From the IMG/VR virus record IMGVR_UViG_3300028569_000093, positions 1-35,926 of that record: DNA of 35,926 nucleotides; one strand, given 5' to 3'. Shown in pieces: positions 17,493 to 31,920 of this stretch. Below the pieces are notes generated by a model. That model was not told where the DNA came from. It ran no database searches and saw only the letters and a list, made by a program, of their open reading frames with translations. The translations under genes and the position numbers were made by a program. The stretch comes from a virus. How positions within the stretch are numbered: the first letter of the stretch is position 1; each line of letters opens with the position of its first letter.

Positions 17493-17552
17493 CATAATGT
17501 TTGACAGACCGCACAAAATTGCCCATTCGTGTCCATTATATCAGACATTATG
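17493..17552. promoter_or_regulatory. Putative HipB operator pair (inverted repeat)
   Basis: CATAATGTTTGA at 17493-17504 and TCAGACATTATG at 17541-17552 are inverted copies with one mismatch in 12 bases, 36 bases apart. The right arm ends on the hipB ATG. HipB proteins bind spaced palindromes in front of their own operon, which fits. The right arm also overlaps a minus-strand promoter. Confidence 0.6.
17535..17543 (-). promoter_or_regulatory. Extended -10 promoter element facing the terminase genes
   Basis: On the minus strand the sequence is TGATATAAT, a perfect TGnTATAAT extended -10. I see no good -35, which extended -10 promoters do not need. It would start transcription about 130 bases before the small terminase gene and lies against the right HipB-operator arm. 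Confidence 0.55.
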
Positions 17553-17876
17553 GGACGAGAAATCAGCACCCTGTTACCCAAGCACGAGCGTCTTCTCGCC
17601 GATTTGGGCGAGAATCTCAGACTGGCGCGGTTGCGGCGAAAGCTGAGTGCCGAACAGGTCGCGGAGCGGGCGGGTGTCAGTCGTTCGACGCTCCATCTGA
17701 TGGAAAACGGATCAGCCGGCACTTCGTTGGGCAAGCTCGTGCAGGTGTTGGCTGTTCTGGGGCTGGAGCAAGATCTCTCCGCGGTCGGTATCGACGATGT
17801 TCTGGGCCGCAAGCTGGAAGACGCTCGTCTCACTGAGACCCGGCGACGGGCACCGAAAAGGAAACTCAAGGAATGA
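17550..17876 (+). CDS. hipB: HipB-like antitoxin, XRE-type repressor
   Basis: 108 aa from the ATG in MGREISTLLPKHERLLADLG. The helix-turn-helix reads LSAEQVAERAGVSRSTLHLMENG, typical of the Cro/CI-type DNA-binding domain of HipB, followed by a basic tail (RRRAPKRKLKE). It overlaps hipA by 4 bases (ATGA), the standard module layout. It is expected to neutralise HipA and repress its own operon. The open frame continues upstream without a better start. Confidence 0.85.
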   Translation: MGREISTLLPKHERLLADLGENLRLARLRRKLSAEQVAERAGVSRSTLHLMENGSAGTSLGKLVQVLAVLGLEQDLSAVGIDDVLGRKLEDARLTETRRRAPKRKLKE

Positions 17877-19141
17877 GCAGGGAAATTGAAGTATGGGCCG
17901 ACTGGCAGGAACTCGGTGCGCCGATCCTGATGGGTCACCTGCATTCCTCTCTGACCCGGGGGAAGGAGGTGTTTTCTTTCTCCTACGAGGGCGAATGGCT
18001 GGCAAGTGGTGCCGCGCGGCAGCTCGATCCCGATTTGCGACTTTTCGGTGGACCCCAATATCTGAACTCCGGGGAACGGCCGAACTTCGGGTTGTTTCTG
18101 GACTCGTCCCCGGATCGATGGGGACGGCTCCTCATGCAACGGCGGGAGGCGGCTCTCGCGCGCGAAGCCAATCGTCCCGCCCGTCGCCTGCAGGAAACCG
18201 ATTACCTTCTCGGGGTGCATGATGAGCAGCGCTCCGGTGCGTTGAGATTCAAGGAGCGCGAAACGGGCGATTCCTGGCTCAACAACGAATCCTCGATGCG
18301 GACACCGCCGTGGACATCCTTGCGGGAACTTGAACATGCCAGCTGGAAGATCCAGGACGCTTCCGCAAACGATGACCCTCATTATCTCGAATGGCTCAAC
18401 CTCTTGATCGCGCCGGGTTCGTCGATCGGTGGCGCACGTCCGAAAGCCGGGGTCAGGGATCCTGATGGCGATCTTTGGATCGCGAAGTTTCCCGGACGCA
18501 ACGATGCGCGCGACATGGCCGCGTGGGAGATGCTTACCCACCAACTCGCAATCAAGGCGGGCCTTCGTGTCGCGGAAGCCGAACTGCAACAATTCGGAAG
18601 CGGCCATCGGACATTCATGACCCGCCGCTTCGACCGGGTGCGAGGGAGCAACGGGACGCAACGAGTCCATTTCGCCTCGGCGATGACCCTGCTCGGGCAC
18701 AACGATGGAGACGATCATCATGCCGGGGCAAGCTACTTGGAGATCGTCGAGTTTCTCTCGCGCCAGGGAGCCGCCCCCGTCAGCGATTTTGAGGAACTGT
18801 GGAGACGGATCGTTTTCTCCATCGCGGTTCGCAACACCGATGATCATCTTCGCAATCACGGTTTCCTGCTCACGGATGGCGGATGGCTTCTTTCTCCCGC
18901 CTATGATCTGAATCCCGATCCCACCGGCACCGGACTGAGCCTCAATATCTCGGAAACCGACAATGCGTTGAGCTTTGATCTGGCCATGGAGGTGGCTGCC
19001 TACTTCCGGCTCAAGCAACCGGCGGCGGAAGCAATTCTGCGAGAGGTCAAGGTTGCCGTGGGGACCTGGAAAAAACATGCAGGTGATCTTGGAATCGCGC
19101 GCACCGAGCAGGAAATCATGGCGACAGCCTTCGAAGCCTGA
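17873..19141 (+). CDS. hipA: HipA-like Ser/Thr kinase toxin
   Basis: 422 aa. The ATP-binding loop is SSIGGARPKAGV, the catalytic segment RNTDDHLRNHGFLL carries the HxDxHxxN-type motif in the form NTDDHLRNH, and SPAYDLNPDP provides the metal-binding Asp. Length fits full HipA toxins. In E. coli HipA phosphorylates glutamyl-tRNA synthetase and causes persistence. Here it is on the strand opposite to the phage genes, between the terminase and the CmoA-like cluster, so it is cargo that may serve plasmid-like maintenance or defence. Confidence 0.9.
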   Translation: MSREIEVWADWQELGAPILMGHLHSSLTRGKEVFSFSYEGEWLASGAARQLDPDLRLFGGPQYLNSGERPNFGLFLDSSPDRWGRLLMQRREAALAREANRPARRLQETDYLLGVHDEQRSGALRFKERETGDSWLNNESSMRTPPWTSLRELEHASWKIQDASANDDPHYLEWLNLLIAPGSSIGGARPKAGVRDPDGDLWIAKFPGRNDARDMAAWEMLTHQLAIKAGLRVAEAELQQFGSGHRTFMTRRFDRVRGSNGTQRVHFASAMTLLGHNDGDDHHAGASYLEIVEFLSRQGAAPVSDFEELWRRIVFSIAVRNTDDHLRNHGFLLTDGGWLLSPAYDLNPDPTGTGLSLNISETDNALSFDLAMEVAAYFRLKQPAAEAILREVKVAVGTWKKHAGDLGIARTEQEIMATAFEA

Positions 19142-28835: not shown

Positions 28836-29377
28836 GGATTGTTGTGCAGGTGTTGGTCGAGCTGGGATCGTTGGTAGATGTGGCGTGCCTTCTCGCTGCG
28901 CATGGCGCGGGACGGCGGGAGGTTCAGTTGCTGCGTGATGTCAACGCAGCGCTTCGAGACGGCGGCGCGGGACACCCCGTGGCGCTTGGCAATGGTGGTC
29001 ATGCTCTCGCCGTTGTAGGCGCTGAGCCCGAGAGCCACGGCCAGGCACTCGACGGTGAGCCGGGTGTTCCCTTCGGAAATCAGGTCGGCGACGAAATGCC
29101 GGAGCACTTCGATGGCGTCCCGGGTGACGGCGCCGGCCGGATCGCCGTCGTGATCGACCATCGCCGCGATGTCCGGCGTGTGGCTGGCCGCAGGGGTATC
29201 GGCCATGTCGTGCTCGGCCGCGCCGTTGCCATGGCGTTGCAGGCAAGGCTTGAGCAGGCCGAGCTTCTCCGCCTCCCGACGTTCATCGAGGGACATCGAC
29301 TTCACCCAGGCCTCGTATTCGCGCTCGTACTCGCCATCCCGCCGGCTCTGCTTCTTCGCGTAGTCGTCGGAGCTCAT
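28832..29377 (-). CDS. Helix-turn-helix protein, possible regulator, 181 aa
   Basis: Begins MSSDDYAKKQSRRDGEYERE. The C-terminal region carries ESMTTIAKRHGVSRAAVSKR, a sigma-region-4-type helix-turn-helix. The N-terminal half is charged and linker-like. Coupled to both neighbours by ATGA. It may regulate the early operon from the nearby repeat region. Target unknown. Confidence 0.65.
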   Translation of the reverse strand: MSSDDYAKKQSRRDGEYEREYEAWVKSMSLDERREAEKLGLLKPCLQRHGNGAAEHDMADTPAASHTPDIAAMVDHDGDPAGAVTRDAIEVLRHFVADLISEGNTRLTVECLAVALGLSAYNGESMTTIAKRHGVSRAAVSKRCVDITQQLNLPPSRAMRSEKARHIYQRSQLDQHLHNNP

Positions 29378-29658
29378 GGCTGTCCCCCTTTCCGCCCATA
29401 CCACAGCCCTGTGTCGCGGTTGAACCGGATCGACCCGCGCTTCCTCGCGGAACCGAACACCTTTTCGGCTTCGTCCAGGGTCATGCCGAATCCCTCGACG
29501 AGGAACCGGAGGACCTCGCTGGTTTCGGGGCGATAAGGTCCAGGTCGATCCGGCCAATGATCGAGATGCGGCATGAGCTCCAACTCGGGCCAAAGGTGGA
29601 TGTGCTTCGAGGCACGAGGGGTCCGGACTTTTTTCCCGGATCTTTTTGGAGGGTTCAT
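29374..29658 (-). CDS. Small protein sharing a domain with the primase-helicase C-terminus
   Basis: 94 aa from the ATG behind a strong AAAGGAGGTG ribosome site and a GTTGAC box 18 bases upstream. The C-terminal half (SEVLRFLVEGFGMTLDEAEK, then VFGSARKRG and TGLWYGRKGG) lines up with the end of the primase-helicase (SEVLTFISARIAE, TLKEAQRVF, TRLWRGRRHG). This suggests a duplicated small DNA-binding domain. First gene after the origin-like region. Confidence 0.6.
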   Translation of the reverse strand: MNPPKRSGKKVRTPRASKHIHLWPELELMPHLDHWPDRPGPYRPETSEVLRFLVEGFGMTLDEAEKVFGSARKRGSIRFNRDTGLWYGRKGGQP

Positions 29659-29676
29659 TTGCACCTCCTTTCCGGC

Positions 29677-29682
29677 GTCAAC
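29677..29682 (-). promoter_or_regulatory. GTTGAC start-associated box
   Basis: Exact GTTGAC, 18 bases before the ATG at 29658. The only box here that is accompanied by a strong Shine-Dalgarno sequence. Confidence 0.5.
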
Positions 29683-29696
29683 GGCAGCCTGATGAT

Positions 29697-29771
29697 CGCT
29701 GTCGCTTTTCTAAGCGTCACAGCGCGCGCGAATCCTGGTTCACCAGTTCGCGCTGTTATACTACGTATAAC
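29697..29771. promoter_or_regulatory. Three consecutive inverted repeats (control region)
   Basis: 29697-29724: CGCTGT/ACAGCG enclosing CGCTT/AAGCG, a strong hairpin. 29726-29753: GCGCGAA/TTCGCGC enclosing CTGG/CCAG. 29755-29771: GTTATAC-TAC-GTATAAC, a perfect operator-like palindrome with TATA-type content. The region lies upstream of the small-gene set on the minus strand and probably holds its promoter and operators. Confidence 0.65.
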
Positions 29772-29828
29772 GGTCAGGTTCCCAGTAAGGCTCCTTACAT
29801 AGGGAATCTGGTTTCTGTTAGAATCCGA

Positions 29829-29894
29829 GGGTTCAAAAGGGTTCAAACCCATTTGAACCCGGGATTCAAACCCGGCTGAAATGACGGGTTCAAA
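29829..29894. repeat. Iteron-like array of TTTGAACCC repeats, candidate origin
   Basis: Read on the minus strand, TTTGAACCC occurs at 29829-29837, 29839-29847 and 29886-29894. A one-mismatch copy (TTTGAATCC) is at 29862-29870 and an inverted copy at 29852-29860. The array borders the primase-helicase gene, whose 3' end overlaps the last copy. Clustered iterons next to a replication gene are typical of phage and plasmid origins. Confidence 0.65.
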
Positions 29895-31920
29895 CTCCAT
29901 GGCGACGCCCCCTCCACAGGCGGGTTGCCTTGTCGAAGACCAGCGGTCCCGACTTCATGTTGGCGAGGCAGTAGAAGACGCGCTGGGCCTCCTTGAGCGT
30001 GCAGTCGCCGTCGATCTCGGCGATCCGGGCAGAGATGAACGTGAGCACCTCGGACTCCCGGGGGACGCGCCCGTTGGCGAGAGGAGGCATCGTCTCGACG
30101 GCGGTGGCGTAGCGGTCGGCCGCGCTGCCCAGCTTGTAGGTCGCCTTCGCCTTGTCGCTCTTGGGATTGCCCTGGGGAGCCTTGAGCTGGGCAGGATCGG
30201 CGTTGCGGTCGGTGATGAAGATCGACTCGCACCAGCGGACCACGAACGGCTTCACGGGCGGCAGGGCGCGCAGGGTAAGGTCGATGACGTGGGCATCGTC
30301 CTCCTCGTGCGGGGTCATCGTCAGGATCACGTCGGGATCCCGGGCAAAGACGCCCGATCCGCCGATGCGGTCGATGGACTCCTTGCCCGCCTGGTTCCCC
30401 TTGGAGAAGTGGGCTCCGAACACAGCCGCGGCCCCGGACTTGGCCGCCAGTTGCTCAACCTCGTTGAGCAGGCTCGCGATGTCGCCGGCGTCGTTCTCGT
30501 TCCGCGCGCCGAGGCCCTTGTAGATCGGATCGATCAGGATCAGCGAATACCCGGTGTCGCGGATGCGACCGAGGATCTTCGGGATGAGTGCCGAGAAGTC
30601 GGTCGCGTGGCCTCGCAGGTTCCAGATGTCGAAGCCGGTGAAGTCGCTGATCTGCTTTGCCGTCGCGATCCGGTGAATCCGGTATTGGAGCGCGAATGGC
30701 GGCAGCTCGAAGTTCAGATAGAGGGCGCGGCCACGGCGCGTCGGGAATCCCCACCACGGCGTGCCGGTAGCCACCGAGAGCATCAGGTCGATCAGCGACC
30801 AGCTCTTGCGCGCCTTCGACGGGCCGCCGAGGACCATCTTCGCTCCCTGGTGCAGGATGCCATCGACGAGCTGCGGCGGCTCCGGCTCCGGCTGGCCCAT
30901 GAATGCCTGGCCGGGCAGGATCGGCGGCAGATCGGAGTTTGAGTGCGCCGCCTCCCACGCCGTCCACGATTCCGCGCCGAGCTCCAGCGCGAGCAAACAC
31001 TGGCGGCGAGCCTCGCCATCGACCGTGCGCCAGCCGTCCGGGCAGCGTGACAGGCGCGACGGGTTCCGGTTCTGCTTGTCCAGGTTGATGCCGGAAAACC
31101 AGCCCCAGATGACCTCGACCCGCCGCTTGTATTCCGCCTCGTCCGGAGCATCGACGCGGATCCACGCGTGCAGGCTCTTGTTGCCGGAATCGAGCAAGGC
31201 CGCGACCGGCATGCCGCTGGCGACCACCGCATGATACTGCTCTTCCTTTGGGATCGGCTTGCCGGCTTCATCGCGGTCGAACTCGACCAGGACATGGCGG
31301 AACGCGGTGACATCCTCGTTCTTCGCGCCGCCCTTCGCCATCGGGTTGATCCGCAGGAACAGCCCGAGCTTGGTGCCGAACACGCGGTCGATCCCGCCCT
31401 TGGCCGCCACCTTCGATTTCCACTCGGAGGCGGTAAGTGTGACGCCTCGGCGAGGCGCGATTTCGCCCTCCTCGTTCTCGGCCGCCGGGGAAATGGCGAC
31501 GAATTCATCCGGCTGGAAACACGCGTCGAGGAGGCGGACAAAACCGTCGTCCAGAGTGACCGGCAGCGCCATCGTCGAGCGCTCGCGGTGGACCGGTGTT
31601 GGTGCCGGTGCCAACCGTCGAGCCGGTGGCGACGGGACTTTCGGCACCGGCGCCACGCCGGCGCCGAGCGGTTCCCTGGACGTCCGGGCATAGACCGAGC
31701 GGATGGTCGTCCTCGCTTCGGCCTCGGTCAGCCCGTCGGCCAGCGCGCGGGCGAGCAGTTGGGCTTCCGTTTCCTCCAGCGGGTGGCCGGCGTCGCGGAA
31801 CTGGCAGGTCGCGTCGAAGAGTTCGGCGTTGCGCATGCCCTCGCCCGCGCCGCGCTGGAGGTATTCCAGCGTGCGGCGCGGCAAGGCCATGGCGAGCCCG
31901 GTTGAGCGGTATTTTGCCAT
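29890..31920 (-). CDS. Replicative primase-helicase (prim-pol-like plus RepA/AAA_25 helicase)
   Basis: 676 aa. The N-terminal part carries an archaeo-eukaryotic-primase-like set: VLVEFDRDEAG (210-220), DSGNKSLHAWIRV (244-256) and NPSRLSRCPDGWR (286-298). The helicase domain has Walker A GGPSKARKSW (365-374) and Walker B LILIDPIYKGLG around 470. Typical of the replicative enzyme of phages without a DnaB/DnaG pair. It lies next to the iteron array. The start follows the previous stop by 4 bases. Confidence 0.88.
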   Translation of the reverse strand: MAKYRSTGLAMALPRRTLEYLQRGAGEGMRNAELFDATCQFRDAGHPLEETEAQLLARALADGLTEAEARTTIRSVYARTSREPLGAGVAPVPKVPSPPARRLAPAPTPVHRERSTMALPVTLDDGFVRLLDACFQPDEFVAISPAAENEEGEIAPRRGVTLTASEWKSKVAAKGGIDRVFGTKLGLFLRINPMAKGGAKNEDVTAFRHVLVEFDRDEAGKPIPKEEQYHAVVASGMPVAALLDSGNKSLHAWIRVDAPDEAEYKRRVEVIWGWFSGINLDKQNRNPSRLSRCPDGWRTVDGEARRQCLLALELGAESWTAWEAAHSNSDLPPILPGQAFMGQPEPEPPQLVDGILHQGAKMVLGGPSKARKSWSLIDLMLSVATGTPWWGFPTRRGRALYLNFELPPFALQYRIHRIATAKQISDFTGFDIWNLRGHATDFSALIPKILGRIRDTGYSLILIDPIYKGLGARNENDAGDIASLLNEVEQLAAKSGAAAVFGAHFSKGNQAGKESIDRIGGSGVFARDPDVILTMTPHEEDDAHVIDLTLRALPPVKPFVVRWCESIFITDRNADPAQLKAPQGNPKSDKAKATYKLGSAADRYATAVETMPPLANGRVPRESEVLTFISARIAEIDGDCTLKEAQRVFYCLANMKSGPLVFDKATRLWRGRRHGV

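Follow-up and report, generated by a model that had tools for sequence, protein, structure and literature searches.

The window analysed here, which is the entire 35.9 kb IMG/VR record (35,926 nucleotides), carries on its minus strand a gene for a 676-aa InversePrim-type initiator/primase-helicase (29890..31920). The predicted protein combines PriCT-1, a putative AEP-type primase region, a RepA-like hexameric helicase and a C-terminal winged-helix-like domain (about residues 600-676). Pfam models matched at residues 21-81 (PF08708, PriCT-1) and 343-510 (PF13481, AAA_25), the protein matched PHROG 2597 (DNA primase) with an E-value of 1e-99, and the helicase domain matched RSF1010 RepA (1g8y) with an E-value of 2e-5. 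PriCT-1 lies ahead of the primase domain and a RepA-family helicase is part of the same protein, the arrangement by which InversePrim is defined (PMC5862659). For the AEP catalytic motifs, in which motif II has a His, inspection of the translation by eye gave the candidates VEFDRD and SGNKSLH, and the Pfam search gave no match to a primase model.

The product of the next gene, also on the minus strand (29374..29658), is winged-helix-like and paralogous to the C-terminal domain of the helicase; it has 94 aa, or 96 aa with the GTG at 29664 as start. The two sequences align with each other (BLASTP E-value of 2e-7; hhalign E-value of 8.6e-14). AF2 models of the last 110 aa of the primase-helicase and of the 94-aa protein (pLDDT 84) both have the order HHH-EE, with a beta hairpin after three helices, and fold searches with both models gave weak matches only, with E-values of about 0.2 or worse. 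The stretch between the two genes is bridged by an open reading frame of 81 codons (29900-29655, minus strand) whose ATG overlaps the helicase stop codon and whose TGA overlaps the next ATG. A Shine-Dalgarno-like sequence for this frame, GGAGGGGG, is inside the helicase gene (29908..29915, minus strand). The preliminary description had stated that no gene explains the repeats in this stretch, a statement that does not hold: the translated-looking bridging frame covers the whole region.

Two other features of the window are recorded here. On the minus strand at 28213-28143 is a conserved tRNA-like element with an intact acceptor and T-arm, an encoded CCA, a very short D-arm and an anticodon-like arm whose 9-base loop contains CAT. 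Neither ARAGORN nor Rfam called it. Dozens of related loci carry it at about 82-99% identity, roughly 1.4-1.7 kb downstream of the putative origin described below. A HipB-like HTH and HipA-like kinase pair is encoded on the plus strand (17529-19141), opposite the structural genes.

Five repeats of a 9-base word begin at the end of the helicase gene. Iteron 1, TTTGAACCC, is at 29886..29894 on the minus strand, and its TGA is the helicase stop codon. Iteron 2, TTTGAATCC, has one mismatch (29862..29870, minus strand); iteron 3, TTTGAACCC, is inverted (29852..29860, plus strand); and iterons 4 and 5, both TTTGAACCC, are at 29839..29847 and 29829..29837 on the minus strand. A scan of the window found the exact word on the minus strand at 29829, 29839 and 29886, and the coordinates match the three exact direct repeats, one direct repeat with a mismatch and one inverted repeat described previously. 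In the whole window, TTTGAACCC was the only 9-mer with four exact copies in 70 bp, a density reached in none of 30 simulated windows. A tRNA or att site was considered as the source of the GGTTCAAA word and set aside; no tRNA was called.

Adjacent to the iterons are several inverted repeats. Palindrome P (29755..29771) was previously called a perfect 17-base palindrome; its two 7-base arms are indeed perfect, but they are separated by a 3-base centre, TAC. The arms are AT-rich against a genome of about 64% GC, in an element of only 17 bp, and P is a candidate unwinding or cruciform element. The two strong hairpins noted before are both present: hairpin A (29726..29753) is GC-rich with a 2-base bulge, and hairpin B (29697..29724) has compensatory changes among relatives. 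A further hairpin, GTAAGG-CT-CCTTAC (29785..29798), is within a variable segment that carries CTNAC-type short repeats. The folding z-score of -4.8 at 29701-29850 was the most extreme among 478 sliding windows. We conclude that the repeats and palindromes do exist, that no other stretch of the window is as strongly structured, and that the feature is better drawn with its boundary at 29900. Searches for sigma-70 promoters and terminators found none.

Conservation of the region extends to more than 40 related loci, phage and prophage, in Verrucomicrobia, drawn from other IMG/VR contigs and from loci in Verrucomicrobiaceae and Akkermansiaceae MAGs; the helicase was found in 25 of the 387 genomes searched in the order of these MAGs. 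Helicase synteny and the region are both conserved in 33 non-redundant loci that we refer to as lineage A. The repeats, whose conservation the preliminary description had named as a check, are clearly kept: lineage-A loci retain iterons as TTTGAACC across two reading frames and in inverted orientation, and two iterons are enough in L005, L031 and L033. The other proposed check, cumulative GC skew, was uninformative, with no extremum at 29.7 kb and a course that mostly follows gene direction in a record that is a metagenomic contig and possibly incomplete.

The palindromes were preserved as structures. Pairing was scored for each locus individually, since the palindromes, when aligned by themselves with MAFFT, fell out of register; RNAalifold on the full MAFFT alignment recovered only 12 pairs because the hairpin classes differ in length. 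Palindrome P occurs in 10 sequence variants and its pairing is perfect in all 33 lineage-A loci.

The word used for the iterons changed together with the C-terminus of the helicase. Lineage-B helicases are mostly 56-75% identical to those of lineage A over the N-terminal ~390 aa and have a different HTH at the C-terminus. The lineage-A winged helix is found with TTTGAACCC, a RTAW helix with TGCTGCAA-type iterons (10/10 loci) and a RTIW helix with TGCTGACA (3/3 loci); for RTAW and RTIW versus iteron word, Fisher's test gave p = 0.0035, computed without correction for relatedness. Other helicase C-termini accompany CGTGTTCC, CGAGTTCC, CGTGTCCC or CGTGCGCA, and an iteron-flanked palindrome is present in most lineage-B and other-C-terminus regions. 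No such repeats were found in one distant relative (L237). This switching is as expected if the C-terminal domain binds the repeats, and the pairings of lineage-A winged helix, RTAW and RTIW with their respective words would constitute a natural initiator-iteron code. The same type of helicase is also encoded by eleven phages that have Firmicutes or gut hosts (from Streptococcus, Enterococcus, Bacillus, Paenibacillus, Faecalibacterium, Flavonifractor and a lemur gut), and in every one of them phage-specific repeats and hairpins lie directly 3' of the gene, where folding z-scores are -4 to -10. Other TTTGAACC arrays found in a scan of the collection for paired iterons were judged from context to be unrelated or due to chance. 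Separately, seven unrelated phages (L076, L078, L112, L121, L128, L151 and L162) have GGTTCAAA...GAAC repeat arrays, possibly inside replication genes.

Clustered repeats that adjoin the gene of a putative initiator are the arrangement of an iteron-type origin. Based on the synteny with the helicase in two phyla, the iteron word that follows the C-terminus and the compensated palindromes, the region is most likely an origin of replication. The preliminary description had proposed an origin plus operators; the comparative evidence supports the first part well, and the operators are not specifically supported, because the palindromes vary in sequence yet stay paired, unlike a fixed operator.

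The region might instead act in RNA, as an attenuator or structured 5' element that regulates the downstream genes, a reading that we consider unlikely. The region is within an operon, on the transcribed strand, and its conserved hairpins with compensatory changes would suit such a leader. However, G-U pairs are nearly absent, with none in 229 pairs of palindrome P and 25 in 974 pairs across the three hairpins together, and this scarcity points to constraint on the DNA, not the RNA, although template switching during replication can also perfect palindromes. Neither G-U asymmetry nor sense and antisense folding revealed a clear strand preference. A leader would also not account for DNA repeats that are in both orientations and whose word follows the helicase C-terminus, its hairpins would be disrupted by translation, and no Rfam family scored above threshold in the region.

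The bridging frame is maintained in relatives. In all 33 non-redundant lineage-A loci it is open, with no in-frame stops compared to 2-11 in the other sense frames, and, measured from its ATG to the stop codon that overlaps the next start, it is 234 to 303 bases long, in multiples of three throughout. The Arg codon that GGAGGGGG requires is AGG in 33/33 loci, compared to 2.9% of the Arg codons in the remainder of the helicase. A scan for the combination of Shine-Dalgarno sequence, ATG and iterons found 41 stretches, apparently all on contigs already among the relatives. Nearly all lineage-B loci share the design, as does phage Castelnaud. It is missing from L239, L240, L241, EFC-1 and most Firmicutes phages, and so is a feature of certain lineages and not a requirement of the origin.

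These properties, together with the overlaps at the start and stop, are those of a gene, and in seven loci (L025-L027, L030, L046, L047 and L048) the frame is fused in-frame to the downstream winged-helix gene, in L025-L027, L030 and L048 through a shift near the end of the frame. Nonetheless, we think it quite improbable that this is an ordinary small protein gene with incidental repeats. Substitutions at codon positions 1, 2 and 3 were distributed 28:33:39 in the bridging frame, in marked contrast to 16:10:74 in the helicase for the same pairs at similar divergence, so that the third-position excess expected of ordinary purifying selection is absent. The mean GC3 was 0.43, compared to 0.84-0.89 in most phage genes, the peptide had no PHROG match, the same 9-mer is maintained in two reading frames and both orientations, and non-coding counterparts exist in other phages. 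These patterns indicate that selection keeps the frame and not the peptide, which appears nearly free to vary, a rare case of a reading frame kept without its peptide being kept. In Castelnaud (L182:4366-4623) the counterpart is an annotated CDS, WAK79715.1 ("hypothetical protein"), that is probably the origin region annotated as a protein, a warning that such origins can enter databases as hypothetical proteins.

The 94-aa paralog is encoded next door and has a putative DNA-binding domain in common with the helicase, and the repeats could be chiefly its binding site, that is, an autoregulatory operator, a copy-control site or a partition site. We regard this as very unlikely as the main role, since many relatives (e.g., L010-L015, L018, L020-L023, L028, L029, L032 and L041) keep the iterons without the paralog gene, which is thus not needed for the origin; a role as a site for the paralog and origin function may both hold. 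The paralog itself is a candidate replication regulator. Phage P4 has a small partner protein, Cnr, that regulates alpha, and it is our guess that the paralog is Cnr-like. Finally, in-frame palindromic elements are known (e.g., Rickettsia palindromic elements) and the palindromes here are inside an open frame, but the constant site after the helicase, the occurrence of the iteron cluster only once in the window and the structure upheld by compensatory change make insertion of a mobile element of that type extremely improbable.

Based on the sequence comparisons, we think it quite probable that the region from 29655 to 29900 is the replication origin of the phage, that it is contained within a translated bridging frame, and that selection acts on this frame. 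The computation shows that the region is conserved, that the iterons co-vary with the helicase C-terminus, that the palindromes are compensated, that the frame and its Shine-Dalgarno sequence are kept and that the downstream gene encodes a paralog; from these patterns we infer binding to DNA, firing of the origin, passage of ribosomes and a regulatory role, as follows. The winged-helix-like C-terminal domain of the primase-helicase would bind the TTTGAACCC iterons, which start at its own stop codon, and the protein would assemble there as a hexamer. The adjacent AT-rich palindrome would be unwound or extruded, and the GC-rich hairpins may serve as structures for single-strand priming or loading, as in RSF1010 oriV or pRN1. 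Selection on the bridging frame would most simply be for passage of ribosomes through the structured stretch, so that expression and translational coupling of the operon genes downstream would be maintained. The 94-aa paralog probably acts on the sites of the helicase C-terminal domain too, as a competitor or a modulator.

More tentatively, there might be a class of "translated origins" in which the frame, its start signal and its overlaps are selected, the peptide is not, and ribosome transit itself belongs to the origin as a functional or regulatory element. If so, transit would protect the operon from premature termination or couple origin firing to translation. The InversePrim phage family, in any case, gains a concrete candidate origin that can be tested.

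Several known systems resemble this arrangement in part. The oriV of RSF1010 and other IncQ plasmids uses the RepA helicase, the RepB' primase, RepC, iterons and ssi hairpins. The helicase domains are homologous, and both systems have iterons and inverted repeats, which in RSF1010 are single-strand initiation sites; RSF1010 uses three separate proteins, whereas here there is one fusion in which the C-terminal winged-helix-like domain would replace RepC. An origin within translated sequence has precedents in the lambda ori, located inside gene O, and in RA3, with oriV at the 3' end of repB (PMC9455977). In those two cases it is the initiator that the sequence encodes, whereas the frame here is a distinct one whose peptide is little constrained.

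The passages on InversePrim (PrimPol-PV1) in PMC5862659 give the domain order PriCT-1, primase, RepA helicase, as in the phage protein, and report its occurrence in prophages; they place the members mostly in Firmicutes and describe neither an origin nor a C-terminal winged helix. In the open-access literature searched, that defining paper was the only one found on InversePrim, and no origin described for the family was found. In phage P4, priming, unwinding and the binding of origin repeats by a winged helix are all carried out by the alpha polypeptide (as cited in PMC4234260). P4 ori/crr, like RSF1010 oriV, is similar in logic; it has a single multifunction initiator and a small partner, although the alpha primase is of the bacterial (Toprim) type, unlike the one here.

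The nearest experimental precedent is the archaeal plasmid pRN1, in which the origin is a stem-loop directly 3' of the orf904 primase-helicase-wHTH gene and its structure is conserved without its sequence (PMC4234260). In both cases, the origin or putative origin comes directly after a primase-helicase gene whose product ends in a winged-helix or winged-helix-like domain, and structure is kept where sequence is not. The pRN1 helicase is of the SF3 type, iterons are lacking there, and its region is not described as translated; the phage has a RepA-like AAA_25 helicase, iterons and a bridging frame. Because it differs from pRN1 in helicase and iterons, we believe that the phage region works like the pRN1 type without being a member of it.
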